The notes under the pieces were generated by a model. It searched no databases. It was not told where the DNA came from and saw only the letters and a program-made list of their open reading frames with translations. A stretch of DNA of 41,923 nt from Betaproteobacteria bacterium (GTDB taxonomy: Bacteria > Pseudomonadota > Gammaproteobacteria > Burkholderiales > UBA3065): contig RFMI01000060.1 in NCBI GenBank assembly GCA_009927815.1, positions 1-41,923 on the forward strand, written 5' to 3'. Every line of letters starts with the position of its first letter. The stretch's first letter is position 1. Below, piece by piece: positions 29-7,460 of this stretch. A program made the translations under genes and the position numbers.

Positions 29-420
29 CCGGCAGGCGGCACCAGCGCGTGCCGTCGCAGGTCGTCGAGGCTGAGGTAGGCCAGCGCCGAAAAATGAGTG
101 GCCTCAAGGACCACGGGTGGCGCGACACCGGCGGCCAATGCCTCTTTCCAGCGCGCTGCGCACAAGCACCAGCGGTCACCGGGTTTGAGACCGGGGAAGC
201 CAAAGTGCGGCGCCGGCGTGATCAGGTCGTTGCCCTGGCTCAGCGAGAACTGCAGGAATTCGTCGGTCACTTCGGCGCACACCACGTGCAGGCCGACGTC
301 TCCCGGGCCGGTGCGACAGCAGCCGTCACGAAAAAAACCAGTGACTGGCTGGACGCTGCACGGCTGAAGTTCGCCTCCCAGCACATTGCGGGCGGTCATG
401 GACGCAGTGGAGTCGGTCAT
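25..420 (-). CDS. DUF2237 family protein
   Basis: A 131-residue protein of the DUF2237 family, whose biochemical role is not established. The family's features are all visible: the start N-V-L-G-G, a Cys-rich G-F-F-R-D-G-C-C segment, the central F-G-F-P-G-L-K-P-G-D-R-W-C-L-C block, and A-P-P-V-V-L-E-A-T-H near the C-terminus. The conserved cysteines suggest metal or redox chemistry, which is inference. The ATG at 420 is taken as the start; an in-frame ATG at 399 directly before the conserved core is the alternative. It is divergent from dnaE across about 100 bases and overlaps the response regulator that follows. The longer open frame upstream of 420 runs into the dnaE start region and lacks family similarity. 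Confidence 0.85.
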   Translation of the reverse strand: MTDSTASMTARNVLGGELQPCSVQPVTGFFRDGCCRTGPGDVGLHVVCAEVTDEFLQFSLSQGNDLITPAPHFGFPGLKPGDRWCLCAARWKEALAAGVAPPVVLEATHFSALAYLSLDDLRRHALVPPAG

Positions 421-519
421 CTCGGTGGGGTGGTGGTCGGAGTAAACTGGGCAAACCCAAATGTGGTCTGCACGACGATGATACCGCCAGTGCGACGCAG
501 CCAACTGCAGCGATTCGAT

Positions 520-3500
520 ATGCCCGCACCGCGTTTTGTCCACCTGCGACTGCACAGCGAGTACTCCGTCAGCGACGGCGTCACCCGCATCGACGACGCC
601 ATCGACGCGGCGCACGCCGATGGCCAGCCCGCGCTGGCACTCACCGACTTGGGCAATCTGTTCGGACTGGTCAAGTTCTACAAACAGGCGCGGGCCCGCG
701 GCATCAAGCCGATCTGCGGCGCAGACTTCTGGCTAGCCAGCGACTCCGACACCGAACCGTCACGCCTGCTACTGCTGGTGCGCGACCACGGTGGCTATCT
801 GGCGCTGTGCCGACTGATGACGCGGGCCTACCGCGAGGGACTCGAGCGCGGCCGCGCGACGCTGCGCCGCGAGTGGTTCGACAACGAAGATTGCAGTGGC
901 CTGATCCTGCTCTGCGGCGCCCGCCACGGCGAGATCGGGCGGGCGCTACTGGGCGGCAACAGCGATGCCGCCGAGGCGCTGGCGCGCGAGTGGTCGGCGC
1001 GCTTCCCCGGCGCCTGCTATCTCGAGGTCCAACGCGACGGCTCGGCCGACGCCGAGTCGCACACCCGGGCGACCGCGCGCTTGGCGAGTCGGCTGCGCTT
1101 ACCTTTGGTGGCCACCCATCCGGTGCAGTTTCTACGCCCCGACGACTTCAAAGCCCATGAAGCACGGGTCTGCATCGCCGAGGGCCACGTGTTGTCGGAC
1201 CGCAAACGGCCGCGCAAATACAGCCCCGAGCAGTACTTCATGGGTCAAGACGAGATGGCCTCGCGCTTTGCCGACTTGCCCCAAGCACTGGAAAACGCCG
1301 TCGTCATTGCGCGGCGCTGCAATCTGCAACTGACGCTGGGCAAGTCGAAGCTGCCACTGTTCCCGACACCCGAGGGGGTGACGCTGGACCAGTTTCTCGT
1401 CGATGAGTCGCGCGCCGGTCTGAACCAGCGCTTGCTGCAGCTCTACCCCAACAGCGCCGAGCGCGAACGAGAGCGCGCACGGTATGAGGCGCGGCTCGAC
1501 TTCGAGTGCCAGACCATCGTGCAGATGGGCTTCCCAGGCTACTTCCTGATCGTCGCCGACTTTATCGGCTGGGCCAAACGCAACGGCGTGCCGGTCGGGC
1601 CGGGGCGCGGCTCCGGCGCTGGCTCGCTGGTCGCCTACAGCCTGGGCATCACCGACCTCGACCCGCTGCGCTACGACCTGCTGTTCGAGCGCTTCCTGAA
1701 CCCGGAGCGGGTGTCCATGCCCGACTTCGACATCGATTTTTGCCAAGAGGGCCGCGACCGCGTCATCGACTACGTGCGCGGCAAATACGGCGACGCATCG
1801 GTGTCGCAAATCGCCACCTTCGGCACGATGGCGGCGCGCGCAGTGCTGCGCGACGTCGGGCGGGTGCTCGAGTGGGGCTACAACCGTACCGACGAGCTGG
1901 TCAAGCTGGTGCCCAACCCGCCGGGCAAGGCGGTGACGCTCAAGCGCCGCACCGACCCGGACGACAAGCAGACGCTCTACGCCCGCGAAGAGGCTCCGGA
2001 ACTCGAGGCGCGCGAGGCGCGGGACGAGGAGACCGCCGAGCTGCTGGCGCTTGCCGAGCAGCTGGAAGGCACCATCCGCAATGTCGGCATGCACGCCGGC
2101 GGCGTGCTGATTGCGCCGGGCAAGCTCACTGATTTCTGCCCGCTCTACCTCGCCGAGGGCGGCGCGCCGGTGTCGCAGTTCGACAAGGACGACGTCGAGG
2201 CCGCCGGTCTGGTCAAGTTTGACTTCCTCGGCCTGACCACGCTGACCATCCTTGCCGCGGCAGAAAAATTCACGCGCGCCCTGCCGCCAGAGCAGGGCGG
2301 CAACCCAGCTTTCGAGCTCGGCGCCCTGCCGCTGGACGACCGTGCCACCTTCGAGTTGCTGGCCAGCGCCAACACCACGGCTGTGTTCCAGCTCGAATCG
2401 CGGGGCATGAAGGACATGCTCAAGCGCGCCAAACCCGATCGCTTCGAGGACATCATCGCGCTGGTGGCGCTCTACCGCCCCGGGCCGATGGACCTGATCC
2501 CCGACTTCATCGAGCGCAAGCATGGCAAGCAACGCGTCGAATACCTCGACGAGCGGCTCAAGCCGATCCTCGGTGAGACCTACGGCATCATGGTTTACCA
2601 GGAACAGGTGATGCAGATTGCGCAGGTGATCGGCGGCTACTCACTGGGTGCCGCCGACCTGCTGCGCCGGGCGATGGGCAAGAAGAAGCCCGAGGAGATG
2701 GCCGCGCACCGCGTCACCTTCACCGAGGGCGCCGCCAAGAACGGCGTGTCAGAGCAGCGCGCGACCCAGCTGTTCGACTTGATGGAGCGCTTTGCCGGTT
2801 ACGGCTTCAACAAATCGCACGCCGCCGCCTACGCCTTGGTGGCCTACCAGACCGCTTACATGAAGGCGCACCACGCCGCCGCGTTTGCCGCCGCCAACAT
2901 GAGTTCGGCGCTGGACGATACTGACAAGCTGCGGGTGTTTTTCGAGGACGCGCGGGTCAACGGCATCACCATCCTGCCACCCGACGTGAACGCCTCCGAC
3001 TACCGCTTCGTGCCGGTGGACGCGCGCTCGGTCCGCTATGGTCTGGGCGGCATCAAGGGCGCTGGCGAGGGCGCCATCCAAAGCCTGATCTCCGCGCGGC
3101 AGACCGGTGGCGCCTTCACCAGCCTGTTCGATTTTTGCGCCCGCGTCGACCGCCGACTGGCCAACCGCAAGACCTGGAGGCGCTGATTCGCGGTGGCGCT
3201 TTCGACGCGCTGCACGCCGACCGCGCGGCGATGCTGGCGTCGGTCGGACTGGCCATGGAGGCCGCCGAGCAGGCCGCCGCCAACGTCAACCAGGTGAGCC
3301 TGTTCGGCGACGACGAGCCGATGGCCGCGGTGAGCCATGCACTGGTCGACTGTCCGCCCTGGAGTGACGAAGAGCGCCTGAGTGCCGAAAAAGCGGTACT
3401 GGGTTTTTACCTGTCGGGGCACCCCTTCGACGCGGCCTGGCCGCGCCTGCAGGGCTTCGTCAAGACGCGCCTGAAAGACCTGCAAGCGGCTCGCGAAACG

Positions 3501-4037
3501 CAAGTTCTGGCCGGAATCGTGGTCGGCTTCAAGGTGGTGATGGGCGCGCGGGGGCGGCGTGGCATCGTGCAACTCGACGACAACACCGCGGTGGTGGAGG
3601 TGACGGTGTTCGGCGAGACCCTGGACGCCAGCCAAGGCCACTTGCTCGACGAGCGTCTGGTGGTGATCGAGGGCCGCGCCAGCCACGATGAGTACTCCGA
3701 CAGCACTCGCGTGGTCGCCGACGCCGTGTTCGACCTCGACGCTGCGCGCAGCCGTTTTGCCCGTCGCGTCACCTTGCGCATGAACGGCGGCTCTGACCTC
3801 GACCGGCTACGCGGCCTGCTGCAACCGCACACCAGCGGCAGCACAGCCATCCGCATCGACTATCGCAACCACGAGGCGACCGCGCAGATCGAACTTGGCG
3901 AGGACTGGCGGGTGCGCTTGTCGCCCGGACTGCTGGGCGCGCTCACCGAGTGGCTGAGTGCCGAGAACATCGGCATCGAATACGGCGTGCCAGAGGGCGG
4001 TGGCGGTGGTGCAGGGCGACGGCGCCCGCGCCATTAA
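520..4037 (+). CDS. dnaE: DNA polymerase III subunit alpha (interrupted by a one-base frameshift)
   Basis: Catalytic subunit of the replicative DNA polymerase. The ATG at 520 begins M-P-A-P-R-F-V-H-L-R, the usual start of the N-terminal PHP domain. The catalytic P-D-F-D-I-D-F motif lies near codons 401-407, where the DnaE aspartates are expected, and G-P-G-R-G-S-G-A-G-S precedes it. The first frame ends at a TGA at 3184. Homology continues one frame over from about 3174 (L-E-A-L-I-R-G-G-A-F-D) to TAA at 4035. Restoring one C in the CC at 3173-3174 gives a continuous product of about 1172 residues, normal for the family. The second part carries the clamp-binding-like Q-V-S-L-F-G and the OB-fold region. 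Since dnaE is essential and the rest is intact, a sequencing or assembly error is more likely than a real mutation. The long open frame before 520 is not part of the protein. Confidence 0.95.
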
Positions 4038-4052: not shown

Positions 4053-4080
4053 TTGCCCCACCCCTGCGCTGGTCTAGAAT
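4053..4080 (+). promoter_or_regulatory. Candidate sigma-70 promoter for the cofactor operon
   Basis: In the 85-base gap between dnaE and the flavoprotein gene, TTGCCC (4053-4058) and TAGAAT (4075-4080) are separated by 16 bases. They resemble -35 and -10 elements about 40 bases before the start codon at 4123. The match is partial, especially at -35. It is the only plausible promoter seen before the four overlapping genes that follow. Confidence 0.4.
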
Positions 4081-4122: not shown

Positions 4123-4749
4123 ATGCAAGACGTCAAACCCCGCCTGGCCTGGGGCATCACCGGATCCGGGCATTTCCTCAAAGAATCACTCGACATCGCG
4201 CTGTCGCTGCCGCATTGCGACCTGTTCCTGAGTCGCGCCGCCGAGGAGATCCTGCCGATGTACGGCATCAGCCTCAACGGCCTCAAGGACCGCGCGCGTG
4301 TCTATCGCGACACGACCGCCAGCTCAGTGCCGGTGGGTCTGTTCTACTACGGCCATTACCACACGGTGGTGATCGCCCCGGCCACCAGCAACACCGTCGC
4401 CAAATGTGCGCTGGGTTTGTCCGACAGCCTGATCAGCAACCTGTTTGCGCAGGCCGGCAAGACGCGCGTACCGATCTACCTCTATGCCTGCGACACCGAG
4501 CCCGAGATGGATACCGAGGCCCCCAAGGACTGGGTCAAGGTCTACCCGCGCCCGATCGACCTCGAATACACCCGTCGCGTTGGCGAAATGGACGGCGTGA
4601 CCGTGCTGCACTCGGTCGAAGCGCTGCAGATCGCGGTTGAGCAGCGTCTGCGGGTAGCACCCACGCCGACACTCGGCGATGTCCACCGCGACCTCGACAC
4701 CCTCATCGGTGAGGGTCGTGGTGAAGGCGGCGGAGACGGCCGCCGCTGA
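4123..4749 (+). CDS. Flavoprotein of the DmrB/AfpA type (dihydromethanopterin reductase-like)
   Basis: A 208-residue protein of the flavoprotein (PF02441-type) family. Visible features are the N-terminal W-G-I-T-G-S-G-H-F-L FMN-binding loop and the segment A-P-A-T-S-N-T-V-A-K followed by S-L-I-S-N-L. Archaeal and bacterial homologues include DmrB, which reduces dihydromethanopterin to tetrahydromethanopterin, and the AfpA proteins of methylotroph clusters. The downstream partners are pterin and furan cofactor genes, which supports reduction or biosynthesis of a methanopterin-type cofactor as its role. That specific activity is inferred from context. The C-terminal 30 residues are Gly/Arg-rich and not conserved. 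Its TGA shares one base with the ATG of the next gene, so they are probably one operon. Confidence 0.85.
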   Translation: MQDVKPRLAWGITGSGHFLKESLDIALSLPHCDLFLSRAAEEILPMYGISLNGLKDRARVYRDTTASSVPVGLFYYGHYHTVVIAPATSNTVAKCALGLSDSLISNLFAQAGKTRVPIYLYACDTEPEMDTEAPKDWVKVYPRPIDLEYTRRVGEMDGVTVLHSVEALQIAVEQRLRVAPTPTLGDVHRDLDTLIGEGRGEGGGDGRR

Positions 4750-6200
4750 TGAGCGAGCACATCCTCTTTCTCACCGGCAAATTGGCCCAAAAGAGCCTGC
4801 ATCAGGTCCTCGAGGGCATGGCGCCGACGGGCTTCGACTACACCGTGCACGACATCGGCATCTCGGTGGCGGGGCTGATGACCACCGAGATGATTCTGCG
4901 CCGGCTGGACAACGCCATGGGCGCGACGCGTATGGTGCTACCGGGTCGCTGCCGTGGCGAACTGGCGCCGCTGGCGGCCAAGTACGGCATCCCGGTCGAA
5001 CGCGGCCCGGACGACCTCAAAGATATGCCGCAGTTCTTCGGCCGCGCCGCGACCCGACCCGATCTGTCGCAACAACGCGTGCTGATCTTTGGCGAGATCG
5101 TCGAGGCGGCGCAGGTGAGCGTGGCGCGCATCGTCGAGCGTGCGACCTACTACCGCGACTGCGGCGCCGACGTCATCGATCTGGGCTTTCTGCCGGGCGA
5201 GCGCTTCGAGCATCTGGAAGAAGCGATCACCGAGCTCAAGCGCATGGGCCTGCGTGTCAGTGTGGACTCGCTTGCGCCGGAAGACCTCATCCGCGGCGGG
5301 CGCGCCGGCGCCGACTACCTGCTGTCGCTGCACGAGGGCACCCTGCATGTGGTCGACGAAGTGGCCAGCACGCCGATTCTGGTCGGCCAGCCAGCGCAGG
5401 ACATGGCCAGCCTGGAGCGCGCCATGGAGGCGATAGACAAACGTGGTCGGGCGATGCTCTGCGACCCCATCCTCGAGCCGATCCACTTTGGTTTCACCGA
5501 GTCGATCGTGCGCTACCGCGACTTCCGCGCCAAATACCCGGACGTTCCGATGATGATGGGCGTCGGCAATCTCACCGAACTCACCGACGCTGATACTGCC
5601 GGCATTAACGCCCTGCTGTTCGGCATCATCTCCGAACTGCGCGTCGACGCCGTCCTGGCGACCGAGGTGAGCCCACACGCGCGCAGTGCAATTCGCGAGG
5701 CTGACCATGCGCGGCGCATCATGTTCTGGTCGGGCGAACGCAACCGCCTGCCCAAGGATGTCGATGACAGCCTGATGAACCTGCACGAGCGCCGCCCCTT
5801 CCCCTACACCCCGGACGAGATCGGCGAGTTCGCGGCGGCGGTGAAGGACGCCAATTACCGCATCCAAGTGTCGGAAGCCGGCGTGCACCTCTACAACCGC
5901 GACGGTCTGCTCACCGAGGGCGACCCCTACGACTTCTTCCCAAAACTGCGCGAGGCGCTGGGCGGTGACGCTGGTCATGCGTTTTATCTGGGCGTCGAGC
6001 TGGCGCGCGCCCACATGGCGTGGAAGCTCGGCAAGCGCTACGACCAGGATGAGGACCTGAAGTGGGGCGCGGCGCTGCCACCAGTGGTCGAGGACCTCAC
6101 CCACCAGAAAGCCATGGGCGCGACCATGCCGCTGCGACGGCAGAACAAAGGTCGCACCCAGCCGGTCAGCAATCCTGATGCGGAGGCTGAGGGTGAGTAA
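4749..6200 (+). CDS. Dihydropteroate synthase-like protein (DUF6513 plus TIM barrel)
   Basis: A 483-residue protein. The N-terminal ~100 residues match the DUF6513 type, with H-I-L-F-L-T-G-K-L-A and V-H-D-I-G-I-S-V-A-G-L. A pterin-binding TIM barrel related to dihydropteroate synthase follows, with D-V-I-D-L-G-F-L-P-G-E and M-M-M-G-V-G-N-L-T-E. Such proteins are shared by methanogens and methylotrophic bacteria and belong to the tetrahydromethanopterin gene set. They are distinct from the folate enzyme FolP. The likely role is joining the pterin to the arylamine part of the cofactor, inferred from the family. The start codon overlaps the preceding stop by one base, and its last codons overlap the next gene. 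Confidence 0.88.
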   Translation: MSEHILFLTGKLAQKSLHQVLEGMAPTGFDYTVHDIGISVAGLMTTEMILRRLDNAMGATRMVLPGRCRGELAPLAAKYGIPVERGPDDLKDMPQFFGRAATRPDLSQQRVLIFGEIVEAAQVSVARIVERATYYRDCGADVIDLGFLPGERFEHLEEAITELKRMGLRVSVDSLAPEDLIRGGRAGADYLLSLHEGTLHVVDEVASTPILVGQPAQDMASLERAMEAIDKRGRAMLCDPILEPIHFGFTESIVRYRDFRAKYPDVPMMMGVGNLTELTDADTAGINALLFGIISELRVDAVLATEVSPHARSAIREADHARRIMFWSGERNRLPKDVDDSLMNLHERRPFPYTPDEIGEFAAAVKDANYRIQVSEAGVHLYNRDGLLTEGDPYDFFPKLREALGGDAGHAFYLGVELARAHMAWKLGKRYDQDEDLKWGAALPPVVEDLTHQKAMGATMPLRRQNKGRTQPVSNPDAEAEGE

Positions 6201-6777
6201 TCACTTCATCCGCGAGGTCATCGTCACCACGCAGTCGCCCGAGGGTCTGCCGCACATCGCGCCGATGGGCGTCTGGGAGGAGGATGGCCTGGTGACGCTG
6301 GCGCCGTTCCGCCCTTCGCGCACGCTCGACAACGTCCTCGCGCGCAGCGTGGCGGTGGTCAACGCCTGTGACGACGTCCGCATCTTCGCCGGATGCCTGA
6401 CTGGGCGCCACGACTGGCCGCTGATCGCGGGCGAGACGCGCGGCACGCTGCGCTTGCGGGACGCGGTGAGCCATCAGGAGCTGCAACTGGAGCGGGTCGA
6501 TGAGGACGAGCAACGCCCCAAGTTGCGCTGCCGCGTCATGCGCGAAGAAGCACATCGCCCCTTCCTCGGCTTCAACCGGGCGCGCGCCGCGGTGCTCGAG
6601 TGCGCCATCTTGGCCAGCCGCCTGCACATGCTCCCCGCCGACAAGATTCGCGCCGAGCTTCTCTACCTGACGATTGCAATCCAGAAGACCGCCGGCCCGA
6701 CCGAACGCGAAGCTTGGGGTTGGCTGCTGGAGAAGATCGAAGCGCATCTGGCGGATGCGGAGACCGCACCGCGATGA
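6193..6777 (+). CDS. DUF447 family protein, cofactor cluster
   Basis: A protein of about 194 residues of the DUF447 family, which has a split-barrel flavin-reductase-like fold. H-I-A-P-M-G-V-W and the following P-F-R-P-S-R-T-L-D-N segment are characteristic. The family is found in methanogens and in methylotrophs with tetrahydromethanopterin; its reaction is not established. The start chosen is GTG at 6193, because GGAGG at 6182-6186 sits six bases before it. An in-frame ATG at 6178 has no ribosome binding site and would overlap the upstream gene further. The stop overlaps the ATG of mfnB in an ATGA junction. Confidence 0.82.
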   Translation: MSNHFIREVIVTTQSPEGLPHIAPMGVWEEDGLVTLAPFRPSRTLDNVLARSVAVVNACDDVRIFAGCLTGRHDWPLIAGETRGTLRLRDAVSHQELQLERVDEDEQRPKLRCRVMREEAHRPFLGFNRARAAVLECAILASRLHMLPADKIRAELLYLTIAIQKTAGPTEREAWGWLLEKIEAHLADAETAPR

Positions 6778-7460
6778 CCCGCCTGCTGATCAGCGTGAGT
6801 ACGGCCGCCGAAGCGTGTCTGGCGCTCGCAGCCGGCGCCGACATCGTCGATGGCAAGGATGCGGCCGCTGGACCCCTGGCTGCCCTGCCCGACGTCACCC
6901 TGCGCGACATCGTCGCGGCGGTGGCGGGGCGAGTACCCGTCTCAGCCACGATCGGCGACTGGCCGGCCGAGCCCGAGGTGCTGTTACAGGCCGCCGAGCG
7001 CGTCGCCGCCGCCGGCGTCGATTGGGTCAAAGTGGGGTTCTATCCGGGTGGCGACTGGGACGCTTGCCGTGCAGCGCTGGCGCCCTTGGCCCAACGCACG
7101 CCCTTGATTGCCCTGCTGCTGGCCGACCGCACGCCCAATCCGACTGAGCAGCTCGCGGCCTTTGCGGCAGCAGGTTTCCGGGGCGTGATGCTTGACACCG
7201 CCAGCAAGGACGGGCGCCGCCTGACCGACCACAGTTCAATCGGTAGTTTGTCCGGCTTTGTCGCGGAAGCGCGCAAGCACCATCTGCAATGCGGTCTTGC
7301 CGGGTCTTTGCGGCAGACCGACCTCGCCGATCTCTTACCACTGGGCGCCGACGTATTGGGCTTTCGCGGTGCCGCCTGCCACGACGGGCATCGCGCTCAA
7401 GCCCTGTGCGCCGACCGCGTGACTGCGCTGGCCGACGCCTTGCAAGTCAGCGTCTTTTAG
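6774..7460 (+). CDS. mfnB: (5-formylfuran-3-yl)methyl phosphate synthase, MfnB
   Basis: A 228-residue TIM-barrel enzyme (DUF556) that makes the furan precursor of methanofuran or methylofuran from two glyceraldehyde-3-phosphate molecules. The family's catalytic residues appear at the expected spacing: Lys28 in D-I-V-D-G-K-D, Lys86 in V-K-V-G-F-Y, and Asp141/Lys145 in M-L-D-T-A-S-K-D-G. The segment after Lys28 reads A-A-A-G-P-L-A-A, where most relatives have G-x-L-G-A, a mild departure. The start ATG at 6774 overlaps the DUF447 stop. Its stop overlaps that of the convergent chemoreceptor by four bases. Together with the three genes before it, this implies a formaldehyde-oxidation pathway using archaeal-type C1 cofactors. 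Confidence 0.92.

Follow-up and report, generated by a model that had tools for sequence, protein, structure and literature searches.

Four overlapping genes at positions 4123-7460 on the forward strand of a betaproteobacterial contig very probably form the biosynthetic part of an intact pathway of formaldehyde oxidation with tetrahydromethanopterin (H4MPT) and methylofuran, and they are paired with a second gene island elsewhere in the genome. The window, that is, the whole stretch of 41,923 nucleotides that was analysed, is the entire contig C52 of a draft genome of 1.76 Mb that is 94% complete. Open reading frame analysis found all four frames open, each overlapping the next.

4123..4749, +, gene 1, dmrB/afpA (ATG 4123, TGA 4747-4749): predicted dihydromethanopterin reductase, a flavin mononucleotide (FMN) flavoprotein, for the last step of H4MPT synthesis
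4749..6200, +, gene 2, dihydropteroate synthase (DHPS)-like gene (ATG 4749, TAA 6198-6200): DUF6513 region and TIM barrel; Orf20 by gene order
6193..6777, +, gene 3, DUF447 gene (GTG 6193, TGA 6775-6777): predicted FMN-binding split-barrel reductase; Orf19 by gene order
6774..7460, +, gene 4, mfnB (ATG 6774, TAG 7458-7460): Orf22, predicted (5-formylfuran-3-yl)methyl phosphate synthase, for the first furan step of methylofuran synthesis
4053..4080, +, weak sigma-70-like promoter match, TTGCCC-16-TAGAAT

The original prediction, made from the sequence of the window, described a four-gene operon next to dnaE with overlaps of 1-8 bases, and the overlaps are indeed 1 base (genes 1 and 2), 8 bases (genes 2 and 3) and 4 bases (genes 3 and 4). 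Its family assignments, DmrB/AfpA-like, DHPS-like, DUF447 and MfnB, also held in profile searches and in comparison with solved structures, as described below.

The operon and its conservation in relatives

The same four-gene block is found in three relatives (L008-L010, the last of which ends within mfnB), where it follows dnaE and precedes mcp (chemotaxis), cobW and fba. The DHPS-like protein is about 92% identical between the source genome and these relatives. Because both the block and its neighbours recur, the arrangement is a conserved operon and not a product of chance. The relatives bear betaproteobacterial names, in agreement with the predicted host. One record, L008 (CAMDGF010000002.1), is titled Klebsiella pneumoniae, yet its dnaE and DHPS-like protein are 86% and 92% identical to those of the betaproteobacterial source genome, and this label looks wrong. 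For the DUF447 gene, GTG 6193 is the favoured start, with GGAGG at 6180-6184 and with the proteins of L008 and L009 aligning from this codon; ATG at 6178, further upstream, is a possible alternative. The promoter match is the sole one upstream of the operon, where 0.4 are expected by chance.

Genes 1 and 4 belong to families with studied members. Gene 1 matches PF02441 (Flavoprotein, E 2.7e-18) and also TIGR02700 and TIGR02699, although its scores against these archaeal models (92-97 bits) are under their cut-offs. Its closest solved relative is the "putative dihydromethanopterin reductase (AfpA)" of PDB 3wis/4mwg (E 7.5e-60, 174 residues aligned), a protein that is the DmrB of Burkholderia xenovorans (PMC6193120), and the TGSGH and APATSN motifs are kept across the 10 sequences aligned. 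AfpA is cited as rescuing a dmrA mutant (PMC6193120). The solved relative and this rescue support gene 1 as DmrB, a predicted dihydromethanopterin reductase. Gene 4 matches PF04476 (4HFCP_synth) with E 5e-64 and 216.6 bits against a cut-off of 22.4, and Methanocaldococcus MfnB (MJ1099, PDB 4rc1/4u9p) with E 2e-24 for 4rc1. Its Lys28 and Lys145 align with Lys27 and Lys155 of MJ1099, and both are invariant in 27 sequences; Lys155 has been named as the catalytic residue (PMC11365854). The reaction is established for the archaeal homologue and gene 4 is assigned alike, although it lies on the bacterial branch of the family and its predicted product, by context, leads to methylofuran and not methanofuran.

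The second island and the rest of the pathway

The original prediction stated that the catalytic genes are absent here, and a genome-wide search bore this out for fae: the genome has three fae matches, located only on C69 (two in tandem) and C93. It was also proposed that the genome be searched for fae, mtdB, mch, fhcABCD and mptG. All of them are found on C69, a contig of 48.6 kb, fhcC only in part, and the gene order is that of many other families. The island begins with mfnE, mfnF-pabB, a MyfA/MfnD-like ATP-grasp ligase gene, an antisense HisA-like gene (orf17) and the two fae genes, continues with a CitG-like gene, an MptN-like ligase gene, mch, another ATP-grasp gene, mtdB and mptG, and ends with the divergent genes fhcB, fhcA and fhcD, followed by the first part of fhcC. 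In addition, two pyrroloquinoline quinone (PQQ) dehydrogenases of the methanol/ethanol family are encoded on C41 and C24 (784 and 701 bits against a cut-off of 480), and both carry a W-D-x-D motif, which we take to mark the lanthanide (XoxF) type of methanol dehydrogenase. These genes support the predicted synthesis of H4MPT and methylofuran and hence formaldehyde oxidation. What weighs against an intact pathway is that the draft is only 94% complete and that fhcC is cut by the contig end after its first 111 codons and so falls below the model cut-off. The fhcB match is slightly below its own cut-off (303 of 328 bits).

Two frame breaks in the draft could be taken to mean that the operon no longer works or has some other function. 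The CitG-like gene (L004:18209-19077 on C69) is spread over two overlapping frames, one for each half of PF01874, and dnaE in the window is split into frames 49-3186 and 3135-4037, with the break at about 3120-3200, whereas it is a single uninterrupted frame in L008-L010. The draft sequence is probably wrong at the dnaE break, and since even this essential gene is broken, such breaks are likely to be errors; for the CitG-like gene, a frameshift or a sequence error is possible. None of the four operon genes is broken, the relatives conserve them, and the genome has every catalytic gene, so that the remnant reading was rejected as very improbable.

Two further features of the pathway genes were seen. 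MfnF and PabB share one frame of 815 residues (L004:12615-15062 on C69), which may have joined an arylamine-supply enzyme to one of the furan branch; most other genomes have two separate matches, and a single spanning match is also found in G085 and G120. The third Fae homologue (L007:186-737 on C93) is divergent and adjoins polA, and similar divergent copies occur in many of the sampled genomes.

Co-occurrence and published counterparts

Co-occurrence of the families was examined in an evenly drawn sample of 185 genomes of the class and in a sample of 249 genomes of the phylum, which overlap in part. In the class, fae is present in 26 genomes, and DUF447 (over cut-off) and DUF6513 in the same 25, all of which carry fae; the sole fae genome without the two (G070) is a 78%-complete draft. 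The association is very strong (Fisher p ~5e-30, not corrected for relatedness), although the p-value overstates independence because the genomes share ancestry. In the phylum sample, all 12 genomes with DUF447 carry a strong canonical fae, and the further fae matches there are two divergent ones (163-171 bits) and one that is noise. The DHPS-like gene has the DUF447 gene as its neighbour in 21 of the 25 class genomes and in 11/11 others, and wherever dmrB occurs it immediately precedes the DHPS-like gene (13/13).

Two separate islands are a common arrangement in the class: most class genomes fetched have the DHPS-like-DUF447-mfnB block apart from the large island, and a few genomes (G121, G142, G055 and G420) have them together. 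Thus, the prediction of a gene set split around the chromosome stands, but the split is no peculiarity of the source genome. In Methylosinus trichosporium, the set is known to be divided among five islands, and one of those in strain OB3b has the order orf19-orf20-afpA-orf21-orf22 (PMC3615186), in which Orf22 is a homologue of MfnB and Orf21 of MfnE (PMC8141765). From this order and that of G362 (mfnB-mfnE-dmrB-DHPS-like-DUF447), gene order points to orf20 as the DHPS-like gene and orf19 as the DUF447 gene. By gene order, and with the same families, the source block then matches the already known "archaeal-like" C1 island genes afpA-orf20-orf19-orf22 of proteobacteria. AfpA, DHPS-like and DUF447 genes are contiguous as in afpA-orf20-orf19, and both organisms split the set among islands, whereas the source block lacks orf21 (mfnE is in the second island), has mfnB directly after the DUF447 gene and is located after dnaE. 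The families were correctly predicted to be common to methanogens and C1 bacteria, a fact already published (PMC5020050; PMC3615186; PMC8141765). In G084 (L047:7166-12677), the DHPS-like and DUF447 genes are separated by an insertion of fhcA and fhcB, which brings biosynthetic and catalytic genes into one run.

A candidate pterin-joining enzyme

The DHPS-like protein matches PF20123 (DUF6513) with E 1.1e-38 and the archaeal DHPS-like model TIGR00284 with E 4.3e-55, the latter at 187 bits and under the 257-bit cut-off. A sequence search of the PDB gave no matches for it. Its structure model has a mean predicted local distance difference test (pLDDT) score of 66.7 overall, being fairly confident over most of the barrel and low in the C-terminal third. 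Residues 106-333 of the model match solved DHPS, with a best Z of 20.0 (1eye, 206 residues aligned, 3.2 A), and the top matches listed in both structure searches are all DHPS or DHPS-family chains. The protein has in common with the dihydropteroate synthase FolP the TIM-barrel fold and the GAD-ID-G and S-x-D-S/T motifs; it differs from FolP in the extra DUF6513 region at the N-terminus and in a conserved C-terminal region. By eye, the position of the catalytic lysine of DHPS reads Asn274 and the R-x-H motif reads T305-x-V307, both invariant in 33 sequences; this reading is tentative, as the profile alignment stops before both. A separate FolP is encoded on C112 and one dihydrofolate reductase (DHFR) elsewhere in the genome, and therefore folate can be made independently. 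From the modelled fold, the gene context and the separate FolP, the natural reading is that the DHPS-like protein would condense a pterin with ribofuranosylaminobenzene phosphate (RFAP).

Several points tell against this assignment. The score against Pterin_bind (PF00809) is 14.1 bits, under the cut-off of 25.5, no more than 63 columns align when its profile is compared with that of FolP, and a shared fold by itself does not establish a reaction.

A candidate reductase of the pterin branch

The DUF447 protein matches PF04289 (E 2.9e-24) and PF20766 (E 2.6e-16), both over cut-off, and a sequence search of the PDB found three solved relatives. Its model (pLDDT 76.8) matches over its whole length the folds of MM1853 (2nr4), MTH_863 (2ptf), an Archaeoglobus protein (2iml) and a Rhodopirellula protein (3b5m), all of the same Pfam family, with Z of 15-21.5, and the next matches after these four are NAD(P)H:flavin reductases. 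The titles of 2iml, 2nr4 and 2ptf state bound FMN or riboflavin phosphate, and the PDB titles of the solved relatives name no reaction. A literature search for DUF447 in the methanopterin pathway gave nothing on the topic, and neither DUF447 nor the DHPS-like protein was found with an assigned role in the literature searched, in accord with the earlier statement that both lack firm biochemical roles. From the modelled fold and the gene context, DUF447 would act on the pterin branch as an FMN-dependent reductase.

An enzyme of the furan branch tied to mfnB was also considered and rejected. The duf447-mfnB pair is kept in 25/25 genomes of the class and broken in 8 of the 11 other genomes, in contrast to the DHPS-like-DUF447 pair, which is intact in all of the same 11. 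DUF447 is present in four control archaea; to our knowledge, Sulfolobus and Haloferax, two of the archaea with DUF447, do not make methanofuran, which was counted against a furan-branch role. According to PMC6787355, M. jannaschii, M. acetivorans and the genus Sulfolobus have homologues of RFAP synthase, and one at ~30% identity has been described for Haloferax (PMC8305020). With homologues reported for all four, the control archaea count for a role on the pterin branch. On the other side, Haloferax is reported without methanopterin use (PMC8305020).

Which reduction DUF447 might carry out is far less certain than the biosynthetic role of the operon. Methanopterin contains 1-(4-aminophenyl)-1-deoxy-D-ribitol, according to the title of White 2011 (cited in PMC3261824). 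Since the precursor has a ribofuranosyl ring and methanopterin a deoxyribitol, a reduction is needed between them. We know of no gene assigned to this step, and a literature search for its flavin requirement found nothing. As a speculative proposal of rather low probability, the product of the DHPS-like protein may have its ribofuranosyl ring opened to 1-deoxyribitol by DUF447 in an FMN-dependent manner. This role fits because of the cofactor, the place of the gene beside that for the preceding step and a presence independent of DmrB.

The independence from DmrB is clear in the genome samples. DmrB was found in only 7 of the 25 DUF447 genomes of the class, and it is absent from the other 18 (G008, G011, G028, G039, G044, G066, G085, G091, G096, G119, G120, G131, G133, G136, G140, G164, G174 and G180) and from 5 of the 11 genomes outside the class. 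Otherwise, the DmrB-less class genomes have only weak profile matches, in frames of ~400 residues, which fits CoaBC. These loci were also searched for a shared upstream gene in the place of dmrB, and none was found. DHFR is single in nearly all of the 25 class genomes, with none in G164 (87% complete), a second over cut-off in G121 and G174 and sub-threshold extras in two more. Within the DmrB-less set of 18, an extra DHFR piece was seen in G174 alone, and thus about 17 are without both DmrB and a second DHFR.

These counts bear on two other roles for DUF447. DUF447 could be an NAD(P)H:FMN reductase handing reduced FMN to DmrB, the two forming a two-component dihydromethanopterin reductase. 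Its fold neighbours include flavin reductases of two-component systems, and it shares an operon with dmrB in the source genome, but it is retained, mostly beside the DHPS-like gene, in genomes without DmrB; these number 23, which weakens the case for an exclusive partner of DmrB, and the proposal seems unlikely. DUF447 itself could also be the dihydromethanopterin reductase in lineages without DmrA and DmrB. In favour of this are the ~17 class genomes that have DUF447 and fae but no match to AfpA/DmrB and no second DHFR, as well as the constant presence of DUF447, by its model an FMN protein of a reductase fold. However, 13 genomes retain it alongside DmrB, which would make it superfluous there as the final reductase, and the last reduction could fall to the one DHFR or to an unrelated enzyme; this role is about equally doubtful.

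The proposed pathway and its meaning

Taken with the second island, the operon would work as follows. MfnB would supply the furan precursor of methylofuran. MptG, encoded in the second island, would convert p-aminobenzoate, supplied through PabB, into RFAP, which the DHPS-like protein may join to an activated dihydropterin. DUF447 would then perform a reduction on the pterin branch, the likeliest, in our view, being the reductive opening of the ribofuranosyl ring to deoxyribitol, and DmrB would catalyse the last reduction to H4MPT. With the cofactors in place, XoxF would make formaldehyde, and Fae, MtdB, Mch and Fhc would oxidise it to formate.

Some Proteobacteria are already known to lack Afp, and in Methylobacterium its place is taken by DmrA (PMC5020050). 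The DmrB and DHFR counts put a size on the gap noted there: in most fae-bearing families sampled in the class, neither known type of dihydromethanopterin reductase is recognisable. If true, the ring-opening role would explain why DUF447 is found in nearly every sampled fae-bearing proteobacterium, whatever its final reductase, and why its gene lies beside the DHPS-like gene. Two old gaps are thus narrowed to testable candidates: for joining the pterin, the DHPS-like protein, and for a reduction on the pterin branch, DUF447. A draft genome of modest size holds the full gene set for a lanthanide-type methanol dehydrogenase and for formaldehyde oxidation with H4MPT and methylofuran.

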